From Glomus cerebriforme (Eukaryota > Glomeromycota > Glomeromycetes > Glomerales > Glomeraceae), in NCBI GenBank assembly GCA_003550305.1, contig QKYT01000067.1:144007-208006 (forward strand): 64,000 nucleotides of DNA, read 5' to 3'. The stretch's first letter is position 1, and each line of letters starts with the position of its first letter. Shown in pieces: positions 26 to 31,089 of this stretch. The notes beneath the pieces are model-generated. The model searched no databases. It was not told the DNA's origin and saw only the letters and a list, made by a program, of their open reading frames with translations. The position numbers and the translations under genes were made by a program.

Positions 26-1162
26 TTAATATCTTTTAATCGCAACAGCCATAATTTCTTCAATCCATTCAATATTTCTGGTATCAATGATTTTTTTCAT
101 TGCATCAGTATGTCTAATCTTAGAATAATTGGAAGAAACAAAATCCAAACCACAAGTTTTTAACATTAAATCATCATGTTCCCATCCGAATAATAAAATT
201 TGTTCCCAATTATCAAGAGAAATTAATTTTGCTAATCTTAATTTAACTAATTTTTGTAATTTTATCAAACCAATCATCTCACTATTGACATAAATTTCTT
301 TTAATAAATCAATATCATCATTCTTAACTAATTTATTAGTATAAATATAATAAAGTATAGATCTAAAAGGTTCATATTTCCAATTACTTAATTTAATAAT
401 TTTGTTTGTACCTTCTATCCAACCACCTCTTAACATTTTATCAAAATAAACACTTCCACTCGCTAATACAACTCTATGAGCTTTAATAAATTTTCCACAA
501 TCCAATACAAAACCTACATCAGCAAAAGCTCCATTTTCAAAAAAACTTTCATTTTGATTTACATTTAATAAAGAATCTTCGATTAATGGTTCTTCGTAAG
601 TAATAAAATGTACATGAAAAATCAAATCGATATCACGTGATTTGTTTCCGTCAGGAAACAATTGATTAATTTGACACAGTCTACGATAACCTAAATCAGA
701 TTCATCATTATCAAATTCAAATCTATGTTCTAAAATTGTATTATTTGTATCAGATTCAATTAAAATATTTCTATGTGGATAATCATTTAAATCAACCATT
801 TCTAAAAATAATTTAAATTTTGCAGGACGAACTTTTATATCATGTTTTTTTTCATAAGGTGTTTGTAATGCTTCTAAATAAGCGGATATATGATCATGTA
901 TATCATTTCCATTAGGAAAGATTTTAAGACGCCATTGAGAAATATATGGTGAATTTTCATAATTTGTTGTATTTGTATATGTAGATTGAAGTTGTGGAAT
1001 TGTAAATCTTGGACTATAAAATATACCTTCAGCTCCACTATTTTTAATGTATTGTTGAAACGAAGAAACTTTCCAACTAAATGTTCCCATTGGAAGATTT
1101 CTTTGTGAATGATTTTCCGATATTACATTTCGGAGTGGTTTTAATAATGTTAAGTAATTCAT
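26..1162 (-). CDS. MATH-BTB domain protein, likely CUL3 ubiquitin-ligase adaptor
   Basis: Single open frame of 378 residues without an intron. Residues about 25-190 look like a MATH/TRAF-like beta sandwich (GTFSWKVSSF near the start, YISQWRLKIFPNGN in the middle, IDLIFHVHFI at the end). Residues about 208-280 are a BTB/POZ fold: FADVGFVLDCGKFIKAHRVV, then LASGSVYFDKML and FRSILYYIYTNKL. The remainder is helical and BACK-like. In animals, plants and fungi, MATH-BTB proteins recruit substrates through MATH and bind CUL3 through BTB; that role is inferred here. The stop lies 25 bases from the window edge, followed downstream by a T tract. The ATG at 1162 is the first in frame and begins shortly before the MATH fold. 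BTB genes are greatly expanded in Glomeromycotina, so this is probably one of many paralogues. The domain call is firm, the substrate unknown. Confidence 0.85.
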   Translation of the reverse strand: MNYLTLLKPLRNVISENHSQRNLPMGTFSWKVSSFQQYIKNSGAEGIFYSPRFTIPQLQSTYTNTTNYENSPYISQWRLKIFPNGNDIHDHISAYLEALQTPYEKKHDIKVRPAKFKLFLEMVDLNDYPHRNILIESDTNNTILEHRFEFDNDESDLGYRRLCQINQLFPDGNKSRDIDLIFHVHFITYEEPLIEDSLLNVNQNESFFENGAFADVGFVLDCGKFIKAHRVVLASGSVYFDKMLRGGWIEGTNKIIKLSNWKYEPFRSILYYIYTNKLVKNDDIDLLKEIYVNSEMIGLIKLQKLVKLRLAKLISLDNWEQILLFGWEHDDLMLKTCGLDFVSSNYSKIRHTDAMKKIIDTRNIEWIEEIMAVAIKRY

Positions 1163-3415
1163 AAACTATGTATGACAAATATAATAATAAAGAAAAAGAA
1201 AAAAAAAAGAAAATTAATAATTATAATTAATTTTTAATAAAATTCCGATAAAGGTTTGTTTTAGTCATAATGATGAAACATGAATGCTTACATTACTCAC
1301 CATTTTAGTATAATTATTTAAATGTTTAATAATTTCTTGTTTGTTAAAAGTAGAAAAAAAAACAATTCTAATTTTTTTTTATTCTTTTTTTTTAAAACCA
1401 AAAAGAAAAAGGTGATTCTTTGAATGCAACATTTCGATCTTCCACATTCCTTATATAATAATTAATAATACTTTGTGTCACATGCTGGGGGAATTTGTCT
1501 ACGTAGATCTAAATTAGTTTAAATAAAAAGTCTAAAGAGTAAAGATTATCTTAATATTAGATAAACTGCAGTTTTGACAGCTAAGTAAATCAGATGTCCA
1601 GATTGTATCACGAGGTATTAAATTAATTATCGTCCGCAGTAAATTAATTAATAAAATGATTTTCATAAAATTCACGAGCTTTGAATGTGAAAATTGCATG
1701 AATAGGTATATAATAAATCACTTTACATTAATTAATATTTAAATAATTTAACATAGTAATGTTTAACATGAGATAATAAAAAAAACTTAAATTTTTTTCT
1801 TTGTCTTTGGGCGTGGAAAAATAAAATATAAATTTTGTTTGCTTTTTTGTTTGTTGATCTCTAATATTACTAAGCTTTTAAATCTAGTCATTCTAGCAAC
1901 TAGTGTCAAATTAGCTAACAATGCTCATTATTTAGATATTAATTTCATGAGCATGAAATATTATCACTTATTAATTTGTGATTATGAACTTTAAAATTAA
2001 AAATTAAATCGCATGAATTATTGTAATTTACGATTATTTGTGATTTACAATGAATGAATCATTTAGAGCAGGAGATGGTCGCATCATACGAACAGGCGCA
2101 GCATTATGCTTATGCATACATAAAAATTTATTTAACAAAGAATTTGACACATATTTCCTTGTTTTATTTTAAGAGAAAATTTTTTAAGTTAAAATTTAAT
2201 TTTAATACAAAGAAAATTATAAAAAAATCGTTATTATGTGCAACCACTTAACTATGATCGATATTTATAAGATTCTTTTAAATAAATAATTTTATTTTAT
2301 TTAGATATGGTAGATTAATTAAAAAAGATCCTATTCTTTATATTACTATAAACTTAAGTTGGTAAACATTTCACCGATCTTAATTTATTAATTTCCGTCT
2401 AATAAGTTTATTTACTGTATATCTATTTATTGTACAAAGATTTTCATCTTAAAGGATCAATATTAATTTTCTCCATAAAGCGTAATGTAAAAAAAAAACT
2501 TAAAATTTAAGTACGAAATCTTAATTTGACATTTATGAATTCCTAATTAATGTATAAATAATAATTTGTATTAAACCCATTTTTTTACAAATTCAATTGA
2601 AAACTTTAGACATCACGCCCTGCGATTTTCCTAAATCTCGTTTATTTAATGTCCTAAATTGACGCGATATATATTAGGGGTGTGTTGAACAAATTTTACT
2701 ACTACGCCACAATCGATATATAGATCTTTGCTTCCGCGATCCTATTATTTTTCACGTTAAATTATAATTTAAGACGAAATAACAATTAATTCTTTTGACA
2801 ATCCTATATAAACTAAATATAAATGCTATAATAATAATATTTAAACACGATTCCTTATATGATATAATAAAAATTCTATAATAATATAATATTTTTAATG
2901 TTAAAAGAATTTAAAAATTGAAGCATAAAATATATTGAACATATTACTTAGATAGTTGAATGCCGAATGAATAAAATTTTGTTAAATATAGGTTTTGTTT
3001 TGTTATTCACTTTTGAATTTAGATCTTGAATATTTTGTATTATGATTCGTAATGGCATTCTTTTGAAAATTGATATTTTTACTATCTCTATTTACACAAT
3101 CTGAAAAAAAAATCAGTTTTTGCATTCCCTGATACTATGCCATAAATAATTTCAGAAATTAATGATTATTAAGTAAAAAGTTTGTTGTAGTCATATTGCT
3201 TAAATCCTGTAAAGTTATGATAAGAATTTTTACACATATCAACGTATTCAATTTTTATTTCACTAAATAAAGTGTAGCTTCATTTGAATCTTTATTATTA
3301 CTGATTCACACTCAAAACTTTAAACAATATTTCTTTTATATTTAATATATGATTTTGCCACCCATTCAAATCACTTGATATATGTTAAATACAAAAACGT
3401 ACTCTAAATGTTTAA
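1163..3415. other. AT-rich spacer, no gene seen
   Basis: No frame with protein-like composition was found on either strand. A 65-codon frame at 2054-2251 turns into low-complexity K/F/N sequence and looks random. The part next to 1162 is presumably the MATH-BTB promoter and 5' leader; no clear motif stands out. Confidence 0.5.
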
Positions 3416-5974: not shown

Positions 5975-8900
5975 CTAACTAGCTCTAAAAATTCCAGTTA
6001 ATAATTGTCTAAAATTATTAAATTGTTGTTCTGATACATCTTTATTCAATAAAAATGTAACGGTCTTAGTTTCTTGTTCTTTTTCTGTTACATGTTTTGG
6101 TACACTCACATTTGTCATCATACCTTTCGTACATTTTAACACTAATTCTCCTCTCCTTATGAGTATATTTTCATCAAATTGATCCGCTGTTGTAAATATA
6201 TCAATATTTGATGGCAATAATAAAATCGGTAACGAAATACTCGTTATATCAAACCTATCGATTGTTCTTAGTATATTACGTAATCCACTAATTGCATTTG
6301 ATTTATATGTAAATTCAGATTTTTGAATCGCTAAATAGAAATAAATAAATAAATATTATCAACAAATTTCTTTAATAAAGAAGTATTAAAGGAATAAATA
6401 ACCTACATTCAAATTCAATCACCAAATGAAATACAACATGAATTAGTGGCAAATTCGAATGCCTTGTAATAAAGAAGTCTCCTACAATTTTAGAAACATA
6501 TATATTATTATTTATTTAATTAACTATACAACTAACTAAAAGAAAAACAATATTATATAAATTTTCTTGCCTTCCTGGACAGAATATGAGGTTGTAAAAT
6601 CTCTTTCAATGGTGTCAAACTGAGATTCTACGTCTTCAAAATGGAAATCTGTCGACTCCTTACACCTCTCAAAAAATGCTGTAAAAGTATTTTATTTTAT
6701 TTTATTTATTTATTTATTTATTTATTTTTTTTAATATTTATATTTAGGTATTAAAAAAACAAAGAAAATTTTAATAATAGATAAATTAACCTTTATTGGC
6801 ACTTTTCCCTAGTTTATATTGAGGCCAGTCTCTTGGTGTTAATAGTAAGACAATTGCCGTTAAATTTTGAGAATATAAATTAGCAGCAGTCTGGGCTCTA
6901 TATGCCATATCACGAGCATCATTGGATGAATTGAGTAGGTCTTCCGTATCAGATACCAAAAGTCGAAGATTATGGGTCGATTTCACTTGATTTCCAAGAG
7001 AAATTGTGAATGATTCAACAAGTTGTGGATTATCTAATGGTAAATTTGGCCCATGGCTTTTTTGATTATAATTATAATGATGATGATGAAACGAAAAAAA
7101 TGGATCAACATTGATTTGTATTGGCCAGAATGTCTTTCCATATATTGCAATGGAACATGGTATAGAGCAATTTATATAAAAATATTCCAACCCGTTCCCA
7201 TCTCCTTCAAGATTTTTTCTACCCAGCCATCCACCGAATTTTCTTACTGTATTTGGTGAAGCCAGCGATTGTTTTTGCTGAAAAAATGACCAAGTATTTT
7301 TCTTTTCTTGTTTAATAGGAATCGTTAGTCCTGGTCTCCGTTGAGATTTTGATCGTTTGCCGATACTTCCCGATTGTTCTTTCAAAGGTGAACTCACAAA
7401 AGGAACAGAAGGGCGTCGAGTTAGATTAGCCGAAGTATTAGCTATTTGATTGTTAATTTTATCTGGTTGTTCTAGTAAAAAATTAACAGCATGTTCCTAA
7501 AAAACCAAAAACTTGATTATGCATTAATTGTGGTTAATAAGATGAATATATAAAATAAAATGATTTTAATCACCATATTTCCATTGGTCATCTCTAAAGC
7601 TATTCTAGCTTTCTCTTGATTAAATCCCATTTCCTCCATTCTTTTCAATATATGAGGATCTTCTTCCTATCTCAATTATCAAATAAAATTTTAAGTTATT
7701 ATGTGAAAAATTTAGAAAAAAAATTATTTTATATTTGTATCATAGGTATATATAAATCTGAATGTTTCACACATTAGAATAGGCCGGCTTCTTATTATCT
7801 TCGCCTGATGGTGGAAACATTGGGGATGGTGGTGACATCAAAGTTGGTGGTAGCACAATATCTGACAAAGAACTTATACTTCCATGACGACTACGAGTTC
7901 CACTTTTTTGAACCAACCGTAACATTTGTTTTGACAGGTCTTTGTGACATTTTTTCATATCATCTATAACTTCATTAACAATCTCTTTTCCATCTAATTG
8001 AAATATCCAATTTGGATCTGTTGGTGTTTTATTTTTTTTTAACCATCGCTGATGTGCTTGATAAAGTTTGGTCGCAAATTCACAATATTCTTTTCTCTGT
8101 AATCTCTTAATATTTTCGAGTTCACTAGCTAAGGTGATTTGATTATATTCAACATCCTAAAAAAAGTGTTATTTCAATATATTAAATTCGGACTCACATG
8201 AAAAGAAATAAAATGGTGGCTTTACCTCTCGATGTTTCTCTACTAAATTTATAATTCCACTATTTTGAATAGATCCAGACTCAATTCCTTCCATTTCTCT
8301 CTCGTGACTTACCGAATTTTATTAAAAATAAATTAAATTTTTTTTTTTTTTTAAAAAAAAAAAAGAGAAAATAACTAAATATACCTTTCCCTCATATTTT
8401 CCAGTTCTTTTTCTCTGGAGGATATCAAATCTTTAATTGCCTGTTTATAACCTTGTTCTAATTGTAAAAGTGTATCAAATATTGATGGTACAGGAGAATG
8501 AACAAGTGTATGATATGCTTTGGGGAAGATGTTCTAAAAGATTAATAAAAATATGTAATATATATTTTTTAAGTGTCTTTTTTTTAAAAAAAGAGAGAGA
8601 GAGAGAGAGGTTAAATACCTCTGAAGGGGAATCATTATATCTTGTTGTGTATTTCTTATATTTAGCTATAAGATTCTCGCGAATCTTTGTTGCATCTGAT
8701 TCATCTTGAACTAATAATTTAACTTATGGTCAATCACAAATTAGAATCAATTGATTTAACAAAAGAAATAAAGTTGTATTAGATACTTCTTGAATCTCTT
8801 TCAATATCTCTACGCCAACTTTCGTTCATCAGTGATTCAACAGTTGAAAGAACAGAGTTCTCCAAATAAAATGGAATATTGTATACGTTCATAAAATGCC

Positions 8901-9805: not shown

Positions 9806-11115
9806 ATGAAGTGTGAAAATTGTCAGATTGATAAATTATCTAAAGAATTTCCAGTTGATACTATTGGCAAAAAGTGTTGTCATATTCCTAGTTTTTGTTT
9901 AAAGGTAGGTTTTAATTATTATTTTTACTTGGTAAAAATAATTCAGTTTAATTCTAGAATTCTAATTCGTTCTTTCCCTTGCTAAGTGTTTAATAAATTA
10001 TTTTAATGTTCAAAAATCAAACCAAACTCAACAAAAATGCCCTGAATGCGAAGTAATTATTTCAAAACAAGAAGTTAAAAATTTAAACCTAGCATGGGAA
10101 AAGGCACTATTCCGAATTAATCTTACCAAAAATAAAAATAAATTGATTCTAAATGAAGCTACTACCGCAAAAGGAGATTTTTATGTGATTTTATTGAGCG
10201 GAACAAAACTAAACTTTAAGTTAGAAGAAATTAAAAGTGTTGAGGATTTAAAAGATGCCATAGAAAAGAAAACTAAGGTTAGAACTAATAAACAAAGATT
10301 AATTCATAAAGGTGATGAGTTACAAGTAAGTTATATTAATGTAAAATTCAAAAAAAAAAATTTAAATTCTCTTGTTAATAAATTCTTACTTACACAATTT
10401 TAGACCCTTTCAACTCAAGGAACTAAAAATCAACTTTCTGATTATTCAATAGTTGCTGAAAGTCATATTCAACTTATGGTTTTATTATATTCTATTTCAA
10501 AAGAATTATCTATAAGCTCATTAACTTTTGATTTATTCTGGGGATATCCATTAAGCGGAAAAGATTTTTTAGATGGTACTTGTATGCTTTATACATCAGA
10601 TGGCAACCTTTACCGTACTTTTGATTGGTCTAAAAGGTATTATGCCGATGTACCTAATGTTTCACATTCCGGTGATATTATGGACCATGCTAATAAAAGA
10701 GGTAAGATTTAAATAACCAAATAATCCATATATTTGAATCTTTTTCTTTGAATTTTATATATAATTACTTTTATTGTATATAGGACATCATTGTATTACA
10801 GCAAAATTAAATTTAATGCCGAGCCATGTGACAAGGTTATATTTTGTTTTAAGTGCATATAATTCGCCAAATATCGGATGTTTTCCAAACCCTTCATTTA
10901 AAATGTATGATCCCGCAGATCCTGATGTACAATTATGTTCTTATACTATACAATCTGCTGCTACTTCTCCAGCAGTTATAATGTGTGTAGTTGAAAAAAA
11001 CGAAAAAGATGATAAAGGTAATTGGAATATATTTGAAATCGGTAGATTATCTGATGGTAATGCAAAGCATTATCAACCAATTATAGAAACAATTAGTAAT
11101 ATAAATGATTTCTAA
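9806..11115 (+). CDS. RUT1: RING-like + ubiquitin-like + TerD-like protein
   Basis: Four exons, 9806-9904, 9987-10325, 10404-10701 and 10784-11115, give 355 residues. Residues 3-54 form a RING-like zinc module: C3-x2-C6-x17-C24-x-H26-x4-C31-x2-C34-x16-C51-x2-C54; the H-x4-C spacing is one longer than the classical RING. Residues about 96-175 are a ubiquitin fold: GDFYVILLSGTKLNFKLEEI, KQRLIHKGDELQ, then LSDYSIVAESHIQLMVLL, which matches ubiquitin's QQRLIFAGKQLE and LSDYNIQKESTLHLVL. There is no C-terminal diglycine, so it cannot be processed and conjugated. Residues about 175-350 resemble bacterial TerD: LTFDLFWGYPLSGKDFLDG against the GWD...DFDLDAS block, SHSGDIMD, a MPSHVTRLYFVLSAYNSPN strand pair and GNWNIFEIGRLSDG. 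A stress-linked ubiquitin ligase or scaffold is plausible, but catalytic activity is unproven. Intron phases 0, 0 and 1 are shared with both paralogues. Confidence 0.83.
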
Positions 11116-17252: not shown

Positions 17253-18662
17253 TAAATTTTTAAATAAAATAAAATTTAATATTTACTAGTTACTATCCAT
17301 TGCTTTGCAATGGGTTTTAGTTTAATTCTGATCAGAATTATAAGTATACATATCAATTTTCTTTTTTAAAAATTTGCGTAATCTTATACTACTATTTGAT
17401 CCAATTTTTGTAGAAAATAAAATTTCTTTTTTTTAGAATTTGTATAATGTCACATGATAAAATTATACAATTATAAAGCATTTATTTATACCATTAATTT
17501 AAAGGTAACAATTACACAACAAATATTTTTAATTATATAGATTTAAAAATTTTATTAAATACAGTATTTAAAATATTTTATATTATATTTTAAAAAAAAG
17601 TATTTGTATTTTTTTTTATTATTGTATAGTTATCACTGAATATAACAAATCTTCTGTTCTAAAGGATTTAGTTTAGTATAGAGTAAATTTGTTATATAAT
17701 ATACTGAACTTTTAGTAATTTTAGCCAAATTTATAGTGCTGGCCAGAATTATAATTTTGCTTAATAAGAAAAGTTATACATTAATTATTGATAATTTTGA
17801 TCAATACTATAAATTCAATCCAATTTAATATATATATAGTCATATGACTATTTATTATAGAAATAAAAATTCTATATTTAGTTGTTAAGATGAGCATTTT
17901 ATTATAGTAATTCAGTATAATTAATATAATTAATTATAAAAAATTCAGTTCTGGGAACTTATAATTAGTTTTCAGTATATATAGATTCATTATAATTAGT
18001 AGTAACTGTAAATTTTTTTTTATAATAAATTTTATTATAATTTATAGGTAAGTTATAATCTTTCTTTTATACATAATACCTTTTTTTTTATATAAAAAAA
18101 AGTCTATTTTTATTGATATTATTATTTTAAAATTTAAAATTATATATAAATATTTTTTTAATTATAATATAAGATTTTAGTAAAGAAAATAATAATTTTA
18201 TATAGGGATATGTATTATAATGTATTCCTTCTTATATTATATGATTAAAATAAAATTTGATTAGTTTTGCTAATAAAATATTTAGATTTTAGATTCAGAG
18301 AATTGTTTTTTATTTGTAAGAATGATTCTGAAAATTTTAATTAATGAATTGGATTTTTTTAAAATGGATTTTACTTTAAAAAATATTAGTATAACATACT
18401 AATGTTTTTTTTTTTTTAATTTTATAAGAAATAGCTTTAAAAACTTTGGTGAGTTTTACTTTTTTAAAATAAACTTCAAGAAATATTAATATAATATTTT
18501 TACAGAAACCTTAAATTTTTAATTGATACCAAATTAATATAATGACAATATTAAATTTATATCATAAAGATATCAATATGCAAAATGATATAGTTATAAT
18601 ATTAATATAATATCATCTTAATATTAATACAGAATATCAAAAAGATATCATAAAAATATTTA
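17253..18662. other. AT-rich, no gene seen
   Basis: Almost only A/T with poly-A and poly-T runs; no protein-like frame on either strand. A GTGCTGGCCAGAATTATAAT segment near 17738 resembles one near 29000 (TTTGGCCAGCATTATTAAG, inverted), which hints at another dispersed short repeat. Not resolved further. Confidence 0.4.
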
Positions 18663-19522
18663 NNNNNNNNNNNNNNNNNNNNNNNNNNNNNNNNNNNNNN
18701 NNNNNNNNNNNNNNNNNNNNNNNNNNNNNNNNNNNNNNNNNNNNNNNNNNNNNNNNNNNNNNNNNNNNNNNNNNNNNNNNNNNNNNNNNNNNNNNNNNNN
18801 NNNNNNNNNNNNNNNNNNNNNNNNNNNNNNNNNNNNNNNNNNNNNNNNNNNNNNNNNNNNNNNNNNNNNNNNNNNNNNNNNNNNNNNNNNNNNNNNNNNN
18901 NNNNNNNNNNNNNNNNNNNNNNNNNNNNNNNNNNNNNNNNNNNNNNNNNNNNNNNNNNNNNNNNNNNNNNNNNNNNNNNNNNNNNNNNNNNNNNNNNNNN
19001 NNNNNNNNNNNNNNNNNNNNNNNNNNNNNNNNNNNNNNNNNNNNNNNNNNNNNNNNNNNNNNNNNNNNNNNNNNNNNNNNNNNNNNNNNNNNNNNNNNNN
19101 NNNNNNNNNNNNNNNNNNNNNNNNNNNNNNNNNNNNNNNNNNNNNNNNNNNNNNNNNNNNNNNNNNNNNNNNNNNNNNNNNNNNNNNNNNNNNNNNNNNN
19201 NNNNNNNNNNNNNNNNNNNNNNNNNNNNNNNNNNNNNNNNNNNNNNNNNNNNNNNNNNNNNNNNNNNNNNNNNNNNNNNNNNNNNNNNNNNNNNNNNNNN
19301 NNNNNNNNNNNNNNNNNNNNNNNNNNNNNNNNNNNNNNNNNNNNNNNNNNNNNNNNNNNNNNNNNNNNNNNNNNNNNNNNNNNNNNNNNNNNNNNNNNNN
19401 NNNNNNNNNNNNNNNNNNNNNNNNNNNNNNNNNNNNNNNNNNNNNNNNNNNNNNNNNNNNNNNNNNNNNNNNNNNNNNNNNNNNNNNNNNNNNNNNNNNN
19501 NNNNNNNNNNNNNNNNNNNNNN
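18663..19522. other. Assembly gap (run of N)
   Basis: 860 undetermined bases. The sequence on both sides is A/T-rich, so the gap probably reflects an unresolved repeat. An open frame spanning it is an artefact of the N run. Confidence 0.99.
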
Positions 19523-19639
19523 TTTTTTTTTTGCCATATAACTAACTAAGAGCAGGAAAAATCCTTTCATATTTCATATTATATAAAGTTATAGAAAATA
19601 TCATTATTGCTAAATCTTTAAGATAGTTATATTTAAAGC

Positions 19640-24245: not shown

Positions 24246-25585
24246 TTAATATTGATTTATATTATTAATAGTATTCATAATTGGTTGATAATTCATTGCA
24301 TTACCATCAGATAATCTACCAATTTCAAATATATTCCAATTACCTTTATCATCTCTCTCATTTTTTTCAACCACACACATTATAACTGCTTGAGAAGCAG
24401 CAGCAGATTGTATCGTATAAGAACATAATTGTATATCAGGATCTGCAGGATCATACATTTTAAATGAAGGATTTGGAAAACATCCAATATTGGGTGAATT
24501 ATATGCACTCAAAATGAAATATAATTTTGTCACATGATTTGGCATTGATGCTAAATTTGCTGTGATACGATGATGTCCTATATAATATAATAAAAATAAT
24601 GTATGAATAAAATTTAAAAAGATCAAATATATATGGAACTTTTTTTATTATTTACCTCTATTATTAATATAGTCCATAATATCACCAGAATGTGAAATAT
24701 TAGGAATATCACTGAATTTTATAGCGGCGTAATCAAAGGTACGGTAATGTTTGCTGTCTGATCCAGTTCCTGTATAAAGCATACAAGTACCATCTAAAAA
24801 GTCACTTCCGGTTGATGGATATCCCCAGAACAGATCAAAAGTTAATTCATTAATAGATAATTCTTTTGAAATAGAATATAATAGAACCATAAGTTGGATA
24901 TGACTCTCAGTAGCTATTGAATAATCAGATAATTTATCTTTAGTTCCTTGAATTGAACTAATCTAAAATTGCACAAGAAAAGATTTTTAATTTCTTAAAT
25001 TATTAAACAAAAAAAAAAAATATAGATAAATAAATTACATTAATATAGCTTACCTGTAATTCAACGCCTTTATGAATTAATTTTTGTTTACTCATTCTAA
25101 CCTTAGTTTGTTTTTCTATAGCTTCTTTTAATTCCATGACAGTTTTAATTTCTTCTAATTTAAAGCTTAATTTTGCTCCATTCAATAAAACCACGTAAAA
25201 ATCTCCTGTTGCCTTATTAATTTCACCATTTTGATCCAAATTATTTTTATTTTTTGTCTTTAGTGCTGAAATATTTTTAAGATTAATTCGAAATAGTGCT
25301 TTTTCCCATGCTTGGTTTAACTCTTTAACATCTTGTTTTGAAATAATTACTTCGCATTCGGGGCATTTTTGTTGAGTTTGGTTTGAATTTTGAACATTAA
25401 AGTAATTTATTAAACACTTAAAAAACAAACAAACGTAAGGATTAAATTAGAAATAATTTAAATATTTTATTAAAATTAAAATTTACCTTTAAACAAAAAC
25501 TAGAAATATGAAAACACTTTTTGCCAATGGTATCTACTGGAAATTCTTTAGATAATTTATCAATCTGACAATTTATACACTTCAT
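24246..25585 (-). CDS. RUT2: RING-like + ubiquitin-like + TerD-like protein
   Basis: Four exons (descending) 25585-25487, 25416-25054, 24962-24656 and 24577-24246; 1101 nt, 366 residues. Same architecture and intron phases as RUT1. The zinc module keeps all eight ligands (MKCINCQ start, KKCFHISSFCLKC, QQKCPEC). The ubiquitin-like part reads GDFYVVLLNGAKLSFKLEEI and LSDYSIATESHIQLMVLL. The TerD-like part reads LTFDLFWGYPSTGSDFLDG, SHSGDIMDYINNRGHHRI, MPNHVTKLYFILSAYNSPN and GNWNIFEIGRLSDGN. It is about 10 residues longer than RUT1, mostly in the linker between zinc module and ubiquitin fold. It points away from RUT3, and the two start codons are about 1.6 kb apart. All splice sites are canonical and no stop interrupts the model, so this copy looks functional. 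Confidence 0.83.
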
Positions 25586-25895: not shown

Positions 25896-26402
25896 TCGCA
25901 TCAGCTTTTACTTAATAATTTCTTTTTCCCATGACTCTGATATAATTATTTTTTATTTTTATTTTTAATTTGTGACGAGTCACCGACAATAGCAATTATA
26001 GTAATATCTATACTATATTTAAATCTAATGCCTATTTTTAAGAGTAATATAACTCATCAGTACCCGAATGAAAAAATGTAAAAAAGCCGAATAAAGAAAA
26101 TTTACACGTGATATTGATTGTAACTGTGCATTCGGCTTCATCATGATCCTTTTTTGTTTTCTCTCAACATTAATATGTAGATTAGATCTTCTGCATTCAA
26201 AACACTTTGATCCGAAAGTTCGCCATTAATCGAATTAATAAACTTCTTTAATCGTGTTTTTATTTATCCATATAGCATATTATCCTTTATATAAAAAGGA
26301 AATTTCGGTAATTATTTAAAAATGGTAATATTATGAAGTATTAAATTGATACCGAATTTATGTTTTTTCAAATTATTTTATTCCTATTTAATTTTGATAA
26401 AG

Positions 26403-26790
26403 TTTGATAACCGATCTGTCCTGGGGATACCCACCAAGCGGATGTGATTTTTTTAGATGGTACTTATATGCTTTATACAACAAACAACCAACTTTACCGT
26501 ACTATTTCGTTGATATTCTTTACCATTCCGGGTATATTATGGATAATGTCAATCGGTAGAATAATAAAAATCTCTATAGATTCCATCAAGATATTACAGC
26601 AAATTTAGCATCAATGTCACATAATGTGACAAAACTATATTTCATCTTAAGCGCATCTCGTTCATATTCGGATGTTTTCCAAATCCTTCATTTTAAAATG
26701 TATATGATCTGATGTACTGTACGTGTAGTTGAGAAAAGGATTATCAACCAATTATGGATACTATTTCTGATATAAATCAATATTTATTAA
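26403..26790 (+). pseudogene. Decayed RUT fragment (TerD-like part only)
   Basis: Matches RUT exons 3 and 4 in order: CTGGGGATACCCACCAAGCG near 26421, TTTTTTAGATGGTACTTATA, then AGATATTACAGCAAATTTAG near 26589, GACAAAACTATATTTCATCT and GATGTTTTCCAAATCCTTCA. It is nearly identical to RUT3 in places but carries many small deletions and frameshifts and lacks the zinc and ubiquitin-like parts. It lies between RUT2 and RUT3, on the RUT3 strand, and records a further, dead duplicate. Confidence 0.82.
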
Positions 26791-27166: not shown

Positions 27167-28493
27167 ATGAAGTGTAAAGACTGTCGAATTGATAAATTAT
27201 CTCACGAGTTTCCAGTTGATACTATTAGTCAAAAATGTTCTCACGTTTCTGGTTTCTGTTTAAGGGTAAATTTCAAATTCATTCATTCATTTATTATTTT
27301 GGTAATTTATATTCCAACCAACTTCTATCGTCATTTTTGATAAATAAGTGTTTGATGAAACGCCTTGATGTTCAAAAACCGAATCCGACTCAACAAAAAT
27401 GTCCTGAATGTAATGCAGTTCTTTCAAGGCAAGAAATTAAAGATTTAAATCTAGCATGGGAAAAAGCATCATTTCGAGTTGATATTGAAAATGTTTTAGA
27501 ACTCAAGTTAAATAATAAAAATAATTTAGATCACAATGGTGAAATTACAGAAGGAGATTTTTATGTAATTTTACTGAATGGAACAAAATTAAACTTTAAA
27601 TTGGAGAAAATTAAAACTGTCGAGGCTTTAAAAGAGGCTATAAAAAAACAAACTAATGTTGAGAATAGTAAACAAAAGTTAATTCATAAAGGTGTTGAAC
27701 TACAAGTAAGTTTATTATATGAAATATATTCGATTAAATTTTTTCCAAAATTCTTAAAAAAAATTCTTTTTTAACAAATTTAGACTTTTTCATCTCCAGG
27801 AAGAATTAAAAAGCAACTATCTGATTATTCAATAGTTGCTGAAAGTCATATCCAACTTATGGTTTTATTATATTCTATTTCAAAAGAATTATCTATTAAT
27901 GCATTAACTTTTGATCTTTTCTGGGGATATCCAAAAACCGGTGGTGATTTTTTAGACGGAACTTGTATGCTTTATACAGGAACTGGATCAAACAGCAAAC
28001 ATTACCGTACTTTTGATTATAATACGAGAAATTTCATTGATGTTCCTAATATGTCACATTCCGGGGATGTTATGGATAATATAAATCAAAGAGGTGAATA
28101 AAAAATGGTTTATATATTTGGATCTTTCTTAAATAATTTATGTATATTATTATTATTATTACATCTATAGGACATCATCGTATTACAGCAAATTTAGCAT
28201 CAATGCCACATAATGTGACAAAACTATATTTCATCTTAAGCGCATTTAATTCACCAAATATTGGATGTTTTCCAAATCCTTCATTTAAAATGTTTGATCC
28301 TTCGTATCCTGAAATACAATTATGTTCTTATACTATACGATCCGCTGCTACTTCAAAAGCAGTTATAATGTGTATAGTAGAGAAAAGTGAGAAAGGTGAC
28401 TGGAATATATTTGAAATTGGTAAATTATCTGATGGTAACGTATGGAATTATACACCAATATTAAATACTATTAGTAATATGGAACTCTTTTGA
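27167..28493 (+). CDS. RUT3: RING-like + ubiquitin-like + TerD-like protein
   Basis: Four exons 27167-27265, 27349-27705, 27784-28093 and 28171-28493; 1089 nt, 362 residues. Eight zinc ligands are kept (MKCKDCR, QKCSHVSGFCLRC, QQKCPEC). Ubiquitin-like part: GDFYVILLNGTKLNFKLEKI, KQKLIHKGVELQ, LSDYSIVAESHIQLMVLL. TerD-like part: LTFDLFWGYPKTGGDFLDG, SHSGDVMDNINQRGHHRI, MPHNVTKLYFILSAFNSPN, GDWNIFEIGKLSDGN. Exon 1 is exactly 99 nt in all three genes. This copy differs most in the zinc module and in the linker after it, while the TerD-like part is best kept. No disabling change is visible. Confidence 0.83.
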
Positions 28494-29437
28494 TTCGCAA
28501 AGAAAGGGAGTACTTTAAAGATGATGAATGTCTATTATTATATACTGTACATTAGAATGTCTTTATTATTCATAAAAACTTGTATTATATGAAAAAAATA
28601 ATTTCATTCATTTTAGTTATTAATGATATCCGTATTGTATAATGATTATCAGACCGAACTTGTTTTTTCAAACAAATTTTTTTGAAAAAAAAATATTATT
28701 AAGCTTTATCTGTTATAGCATATGGCATTGCACAATTGTGATACTGTTAATAGTATTACGAAAATTTTTAATTATTATTTTAGTTTATTTATAATCTAAT
28801 TTAGTTTAGTTTTCAGCATTAACAGTTAAAACTTGATATAATGATTCTATCTATTTAACTTCCTGATGTATTTTTTTTTTAATAAAAAATTGATAGCAAT
28901 TGACCATAAAACAGTTGTATTCTGTTCTTAACTAATTTTTATAGACTAATAAACGATGGGTATAATTTCAGATGATTCTAAATCGATTATTAATGCTAGC
29001 TGAAATTTTGCCAGAATATTACCAAAATTTGGCCAGCATTATTAAGTACCAATTTTTTTTATTTCGACTAGTGTTAGTATTTAATTTCAACTAATTATCA
29101 ATCAGTTATATAACTAATCAATAATCCTGTTCAATTCTATTTAGTCATATTTTTGGATCAGTTTTGATTTTAATTTAATTGATTTGATCTGATTGTACAA
29201 TACAACTGATTTTTAAACTTTTAAACCTGAAAATTTTTAGAATTTTAGTTTGAATACTAGTAGTAATCAATCAAATATATTAAATACAGGCATTGCTAAG
29301 AAGTTATTATAAAATTAGTTGAAGCATTTACTAAGTATTTATTAAATTATTTAAAAACATTTAATTCAAATGCTTTTTAAACAAATCTTAACATATTTTA
29401 TATTTGATAAATACTAGTAATTAGTAAATAAAATATA
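28494..29437. other. AT-rich spacer after RUT3, no gene seen
   Basis: Non-coding on both strands as far as I can read. A TGCCAGAATATTACCAAAAT segment near 29010 resembles words seen around 17740. No terminal repeats found. Confidence 0.4.
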
Positions 29438-31089
29438 CAGTAACTCACAAAAAGAATGCAACCATTAAAAATAAAACTTTAAAGTAATATAATTTTTTGT
29501 TATAAATCATACTATTAAAATAAAATTTTAGTTTATTGACTTTACCAAATCAAAATATATCCAAATTTGTAAATTTCATCTTCAATTTAATCAGATAATC
29601 TACATTTTGATCACAATTTATCCATTTTAGGCGTTACAATGTTTATGTGGCTTTGTGTCAATTTATTTTTGGCTAATTTAAAATCAAAAAGCAACTGGTT
29701 ACCTAATATGGAAAATTATAAAGAAATAAAACCCTAGACTTCTCTCTTACTAGCTAAAAAAAAATTTTATATGCCATTTTTATTTGCTAAAAACTGAGTA
29801 AGAATCTTTACCTTTCTTGAAAAAGGCTATTCAGCTAATTTCAATGCAGTTAAAGAAGGTATTCCAGTTACTAGAATTTATCAACACAAAGAAAAAATGG
29901 GTAACTTTAAAAATAAAAAAATTTCAGGTTGTTCTTGAGTTATTTCTACCTATACTAAACATAAAATTCTTTGGCTTGTTACTTTTTGCTAATAAATGTA
30001 CTACAGCTATTGCTATACAAAATGAGCTTAAAAACTATGATAATATTTAAATTTGTGCTGAAATCATATGTAAAACACTTTGATGAAATGGTTTAGAATC
30101 AAGAATTAAGAAAAAAAAACCTTATCTCAAAAAGACATACTGTAAACATCACTTGGATTTTGCAAAAAAATATCAAAATTAGACTGTAGATAATTGGAAA
30201 AAGGTAATCTGATCTGATAAAAATAAGTTCATATTTTTTGGTTTAGATGGATACCAATACTATTAGAAAAAACCAGGGAAATCATTAAGAAGTCCTTATG
30301 TTAAATTAATAGTAAAATTTGGCAAGAATTATATAATGATTTGGGGTTGCTTTTTAGCAAAAGATATTGATAATATTTGTATAATTGATGGTAATTTAAA
30401 TAAAAAACTTTATTGGCAGATACTTGCAGAAGACCTTATGAAATCTATTTCAGAATGGGAATTAAGTATTAAAGATGTAATTTTTCAATATGATAATGAC
30501 CCAAAACATATAGCAAATCTTACCAAAGACTAGCTTTCTAATAATGAAATAACTGTTCTTAACTAGTCTACACAATCTCCTGACTTAAATCCAATAGAAC
30601 ATCTTTGAAATGATATTAAATGTTGATTAAGATATCTTTCAGAATGAGTTACAGAAAGAAAAAATCTGTGAAAAAAATTCAAAATATGTGGTTCAGAATT
30701 GAGGTTAATGTTTATTTAAATTTAATTGAATTTATGTCAGAAAGGATAAATGATGTAATCAAGACTAAGAGAGTCATACAAAGTAGTAGTAAGATGTAAT
30801 TTAATAAATAAATATGTTAGTGCTGACATCTGTCATTTATTTGATTAAAATCTAACTGGTTAAATATTGATTTCCAAAAGTCACATAAACAGTGTAATAC
30901 TAGAATATAAAAAATCTTTGCGTAGATTTTTTTTCACATGATCAAATAAAAATAAAATTTTATATTTTAATGAAATTTGATTTTACAAATACAATAAACT
31001 TTATTTTATTTTGATATAACTTATGAATTAAAAGTTATGTTAGTTTAAAATTTTATATTTGATAGTTGTATTCTTTTTGTAAGTTATTA
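29438..31089 (+). mobile_element. Tc1/mariner transposon copy 2, inactive
   Basis: Long inverted terminal repeats of about 100 bp: left CAGTAACTCACAAAAAGAAT; the right end is the complement type, TTCTTTTTGTAAGTTATTA. TA flanks both ends (29436-29437 and 31090-31091). Length 1652 bp. The ends differ from copy 1, so this is a separate Tc1 family. Confidence 0.85.
29800..30770 (+). pseudogene. Broken Tc1/mariner transposase (copy 2)
   Basis: Order of blocks: an FNAVKEGIPVTRIYQHKEK-like region, KPYLKKTYCKHHLDFAKKY, then NWKKVI-stop-SDKNKFIFFG (first catalytic Asp), NYMIWGCFLAKDIDNICIID, IFQYDNDPKHIANLTKD (second Asp) and SPDLNPIEHL (catalytic Glu), i.e. the DD34E order of the family. In-frame stops replace expected Trp at 30180-30182, 30210-30212 and 30264-30266, and again in the VLN-stop-STQSP and EHL-stop-NDIK blocks. 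Not functional. Confidence 0.85.

Follow-up and report, generated by a model that had tools for sequence, protein, structure and literature searches.

A spliced gene with three domains

The 64,000-nucleotide stretch of Glomus cerebriforme contig QKYT01000067.1 analysed here (the window) carries, at positions 9806-11115, a gene whose product joins a TerD domain to a RING-like zinc module and an internal ubiquitin-like domain. The four exons join in frame into 355 codons and a stop codon across three GT...AG introns, and the G+C content at third codon positions is 0.163, against 0.379 and 0.329. Each of the three domains is cut by one intron and none lies whole on a single exon, which answers the concern that the exons might represent separate genes; the first-pass annotation of a single spliced gene is supported. 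Both the intron phases (0/0/1) and the intron positions recur in the window's other two intact copies and in the plus-strand copy on contig C130 (Table 1).

Assignment of the domains

The domains were assessed in a main set of relatives (A5, n = 72, 296-370 residues), hand-picked from the 182 protein identifiers of three homologue searches, after removal of long fusions, of pieces consisting of TerD alone and of many near duplicates. An earlier, less filtered set (n = 48) still contains long fusions and two short pieces. When the whole alignment was used as a profile, the best 60 PDB matches were ubiquitin entries only, and the zinc module and TerD were therefore searched apart; NCBIfam gave only chance-level matches on the four relatives compared with it.

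The ubiquitin-like domain is clearly recognised. PF00240 matches residues 100-172 of the window protein (E 7.3e-9, 35.7 bits, cut-off 25.4), and the Pfam ubiquitin match recurs in 68 of the 72 relatives (E <= 0.01) and in 43 of the earlier 48 (E <= 0.1). Profile and β-grasp fold are both recovered, as expected for an internal ubiquitin fold. By our own matching, the positions equivalent to ubiquitin L8, I44 and V70 are hydrophobic in 70, 67 and 72 relatives, respectively. This part of the chain does not end in Gly-Gly; it continues from LLYS straight into TerD, so that conjugation in the manner of ubiquitin is impossible.

For TerD, the window protein taken alone scores below threshold with PF02342 (E 1.3e-4, 22.0 bits, cut-off 25.3), and it is the relatives that settle the assignment, with matches in all 72 (E <= 0.01) and in 46 of the earlier 48 (E <= 0.1). 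A profile built from the TerD parts of 12 relatives places TerD structures first in the PDB (3ibz, 1.5e-7; 2kxt, 3.5e-6), ahead of an unrelated protein at E 0.17, and the TerD fold is recovered. Residues D220, H234, G236, L268, S269 and Y342 (P0001 numbering) are present in every relative and C313 in 71. At the DNA level, the FDLFWGYP-type pattern occurs three times in the window, once in each intact copy, compared with no occurrence in 100 shuffles.

The N-terminal module carries the eight zinc ligands of a C3HC4 RING across the 72 relatives: C6, C24, H26, C31, C34, C51 and C54 are found in all of them and C3 in 71. The best PDB matches of a profile built from the zinc modules of 15 relatives are known RINGs, namely a RING2-BMI1 chimera (5.3e-8) and an RNF4 chain (1.5e-5), although each of these scores sums two RINGs per chain and the best single stretches reach only 3.3e-4 and 0.0027; BMI1 (3.4e-5) and BRCA1 (2.4e-4) follow.

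That summing is one of several features that weigh against a RING ligase with a TerD sensor. Most of the PDB matches span ligands 3-8 only. The Pfam family zf-C3HC4 gives E 0.88 and 9.9 bits on the window protein, against a curated RING cut-off of 21, and matches just 3 of the 72 relatives at E <= 0.01 and 11 of the earlier 48 at E <= 0.1. Ligands 4 and 5 are separated as H-x4-C in all 72 relatives, an unusual arrangement, since RINGs usually have H-x2/3-C; for this reason we call the module RING-like only. Positions that would contact a ubiquitin-conjugating (E2) enzyme are weak: a Pro follows ligand seven in 55 of the 72 relatives, and no steady hydrophobic residue was found between the first two ligands. 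In active RINGs the residue after the last ligand is often an Arg 'linchpin'; here that position is never Arg and is Lys in 11 of 72. On the TerD side, the loop after SGD holds 0-3 acidic residues (mean 1.3 over 72 rows) against five each in 2kxt and 3ibz.

Domain names and order in the first-pass annotation are thus upheld by profiles and relatives, with one reservation: its eight-ligand zinc module is confirmed, whereas a true RING is not.

Distribution and origin of the family

The gene had been presented as an oddity of a fungus. It is fungal, but that description understates its range, as searches for the full architecture in other genomes found full-length relatives widely in Glomeromycotina, in many invertebrates and in an amoeba. 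With the window protein as query, 58 proteins were recovered, and the fungal names among the matches listed are all Glomeromycotina (Rhizophagus, Glomus, Funneliformis, Gigaspora, Entrophospora, Dentiscutata, Acaulospora, Scutellospora, Diversispora and Cetraspora). The same search found relatives in the brachiopod Lingula anatina (39%, with 99% of the query covered), the amoeba Planoprotostelium fungivorum (35%) and Mya arenaria, the last with a divergent N-terminal part. An alignment-based search gave 48 proteins and newly added Ambispora.

The Lingula query recovered 265 proteins, of which 120 are listed. Those named include amphioxus, bivalves, gastropods, sea anemones (Nematostella carries a copy), corals, octocorals, a brittle star and a crinoid. 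Query coverage is at least 90% in 88 of the 120, and many of the 32 lower matches are TerD-only pieces of ~200 residues. Mytilus, Haliotis, Stylophora, Amphiura and Dendronephthya each have at least two entries among the matches listed, which may include splice forms or errors. No vertebrate or insect names occur among the 120 of 265 matches listed, in a search that requires shared 5-letter words. Several full-length matches lie on contigs that barely exceed the coding region (for example, 346 residues on 1,223 bases), suggesting that these contigs are assembled transcripts.

In a FastTree tree of the 72 rows, which we rooted on Planoprotostelium, the 29 Glomeromycotina rows are united with support 0.999, and 41 animal and unnamed rows with support 0.88. 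Mollusc, cnidarian and echinoderm groups appear within the latter, in a branching order at odds with accepted animal phylogeny: Lingula groups with amphioxus, and the echinoderms group with the cnidarians. The metagenome row P0054 adjoins the fungi. Scans with the TerD alignment, using two peptide patterns each, gave 17 pattern matches in 84,980 prokaryote genomes and 71 in the viral sequences of IMG/VR, with no confirmed relative in either, although more distant TerD proteins would escape such patterns. The simplest reading is that the gene predates the fungus-animal split and was lost in many lines; alternatively, it may have been transferred between eukaryote groups.

Copies in the window and the genome

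The window contains three intact copies and one decayed copy (Table 1). The product of the second is identical to the public G. cerebriforme protein C1645_872983, and the first 356 residues of the third are identical to C1645_872984, which makes this species (Glomeraceae) the very likely host; no protein identical to the focal copy was found among the protein sequences compared. The public third-copy protein (P0005, 414 residues) departs near the gene end and, judged by eye (28171-30400), resumes ~1.9 kb downstream, in what looks like a remnant of a Tc1/mariner-type transposase. The gene ends normally at 28493, and the public model is probably a mis-splice.

Across its own genome the window protein has 22 matches, exon by exon, and the Pfam TerD model has a single one. 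Contig C130 carries two copies, in the minus-strand one of which the third intron is seemingly placed elsewhere, while the gene model of the plus-strand one ends short of its stop codon; the pair lies head to head with ~400 bases between (L022, C130:434000-443900). A further fragment of the gene is present on contig C312. Comparison of the focal copy with three others gives non-synonymous/synonymous substitution rates (dN/dS) of 0.121/0.326, 0.177/0.528 and 0.253/0.788. With dN at about a third of dS, the copies are, on this measure, under purifying selection. Divergence between copies is patchy: between copies 1 and 2, dS rises from 0.142 (zinc module) to 0.445 (ubiquitin-like part), and between copies 2 and 3 it falls from 0.863 (zinc module) to 0.36 (TerD). 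Gene conversion could produce such a pattern.

Upstream of the focal gene, exons at 5978-7496 (-) match the Fy-3 family (FERRY endosomal RAB5 effector subunit 3), and a BTB-MATH protein is encoded at 29-1165 (-). A run of N at ~18650-19540, within a very A+T-rich stretch, lies between the gene copies.

Table 1. Positions of the focal gene, its parts and its further copies (window coordinates unless a contig is named)
Feature	Position	Strand	Remarks
Focal gene, exon 1	9806-9904	+	Residues 1-33; zinc ligands C3, C6, C24, H26, C31
Focal gene, intron 1	9905-9986	+	82 bases, phase 0; cuts the zinc module within its CLKC motif
Focal gene, exon 2	9987-10325	+	Residues 34-146
Zinc module, remainder (exon 2)	up to ~10067	+	C34, C51, C54
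Linker (exon 2)	~10068-10175	+	
Ubiquitin-like domain, first part (exon 2)	from ~10176	+	
Focal gene, intron 2	10326-10403	+	78 bases, phase 0; within the ubiquitin-like domain
Focal gene, exon 3	10404-10701	+	Residues 147-245 and first base of codon 246
Ubiquitin-like domain, end (exon 3)	to ~10490	+	
TerD, first part (exon 3)	from ~10509	+	FDLFWGYP, DFLDG, HSGD
Focal gene, intron 3	10702-10783	+	82 bases, phase 1; within TerD
Focal gene, exon 4	10784-11115	+	Remaining TerD up to residue 355, then stop
Second intact copy	24246-25585	-	Exons 25585-25487, 25416-25054, 24962-24656, 24577-24246; 366 residues
Decayed copy	26401-26783	+	TerD remnants in several frames, with stops
Third intact copy	27167-28493	+	Exons 27167-27265, 27349-27705, 27784-28093, 28171-28493; 362 residues
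Copy on contig C130	437341-438654	-	Window-protein match
Copy on contig C130	439055-440419	+	Window-protein match

Possible function

What does such a protein do? Our preferred reading, held tentatively and with somewhat less than even confidence, is that the gene belongs to an ancient, uncharacterised eukaryotic family, with a RING-like module, an internal ubiquitin-like domain and TerD, that acts as an intracellular ubiquitin-pathway ligase or adaptor. Sequence comparison and modelling show which three domains the chain holds and how they are ordered, that fungi, animals and an amoeba conserve them, and that the window carries a small cluster of the gene. The role in the ubiquitin pathway inside the cell is one that we infer, with support from the presence of a RING-like module and a ubiquitin-like fold in one chain and from the hydrophobic character of the L8, I44 and V70 positions; a ligase with TerD as its putative sensor is plausible. 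In such a protein the zinc module would contact an E2 enzyme or a partner RING, and the ubiquitin-like domain could dock through its hydrophobic face onto a ubiquitin receptor or onto its own RING. TerD, in turn, may bind a small ligand or partner made in stress and thereby switch the activity, and gene multiplication in mycorrhizal fungi might tune this switch to different cues.

The literature offers leads to the TerD ligand. Klebsiella TerD binds calcium, and similarity of TerD to a Dictyostelium cAMP-binding protein is noted (PMC8123226); PMC7159879 suggests TerD as a possible recogniser of specialised nucleotide derivatives. Because most of the bacterial acidic loop is gone from this family, calcium sensing in the bacterial manner is doubtful, and a calcium ion held as in the bacterial proteins is probably not the ligand. 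We can also conceive, as a rather unlikely extension, of an undescribed, deep-rooted eukaryotic switch for stress or defence, in which a TerD derived from bacterial stress and phage-defence biology, acquired before the fungus-animal split, would sense a signal directly within a ubiquitin ligase or adaptor. Mycorrhizal fungi and invertebrates would have kept it.

The same evidence can be read without catalysis. BMI1 and other PCGF RINGs, which are non-catalytic partners, are among the matches of the zinc-module profile; given also the poorly kept E2-contact positions and a ubiquitin-like part without a free end, the protein may be a scaffold, its RING structural or dimerising in the BMI1 manner, that links ubiquitin receptors to a ligand or partner of TerD with no ligase role. 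We consider this possible, with some doubt, since RING2, RNF4, BRCA1 and RNF8, which are active RINGs, match the profile as well, and most relatives retain the Pro that follows ligand seven.

An innate defence factor, in which TerD recognises an infection product and the RING-like and ubiquitin-like parts signal, as in an intracellular sensor or restriction factor, would fit the several copies in the genome, the cluster with its decayed member and the at least two listed matches in each of five invertebrate genera. It would also fit the TerD-dependent anti-phage system mentioned in PMC3710099 and the placing of TerD, in PMC7159879, among the nucleotide-binding domains of bacterial conflict systems. 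The strongly conserved core and the purifying selection make this improbable, however, as many sensors change fast. Lastly, TerD is known mainly from bacteria, and a recent bacterial transfer into the fungus with chance fusion to neighbouring exons might be imagined. We reject it as extremely improbable: the architecture is common to animals and an amoeba, the fungal rows form one group in the tree, the introns lie inside each domain at shared places, and the scan of 84,980 prokaryote genomes with two peptide patterns yielded no confirmed relative.

Comparison with known systems

The gene represents a new combination of known domains that is conserved and, as far as our literature searches reach, not described. 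They found no paper describing the RING-like/ubiquitin-like/TerD architecture, nor any on Rhizophagus with TerD; the 2012 paper of Anantharaman on Ter systems, a possible source on eukaryotic fusions, lay outside them, so that priority is unsettled. The role of TerD is unsettled even in bacteria, and a family in which it is joined to ubiquitin-type parts opens a direct route to the signals that TerD senses, which the Nematostella copy brings within reach of animal genetics. The ubiquitin pathway would also gain an unstudied family, possibly one older than the fungus-animal split.

Parkin, HOIL-1 and UHRF1 are ligases with built-in ubiquitin-like domains and, like the focal protein, have a zinc RING and an internal ubiquitin-like domain in one chain. 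Their domain order and partner domains differ, however, and none is known to carry TerD. The likeness of the Chlamydomonas radial spoke chain 7jtk_A, which has 749 residues, is at the level of the fold. The cAMP-binding proteins CapA and CapB of Dictyostelium are likewise eukaryotic proteins with a TerD-derived part, here the C-terminal half; the passages of PMC3188802 that describe them mention no RING-like or ubiquitin-like part. Compared with the bacterial TerD family (PF02342; 3ibz, 2qz7, 2qng, 2kxt), the fungal TerD is fused to RING-like and ubiquitin-like parts, and where the bacterial proteins have TGD...GDDE this family, its acidic loop largely gone, has SGD...GHH.
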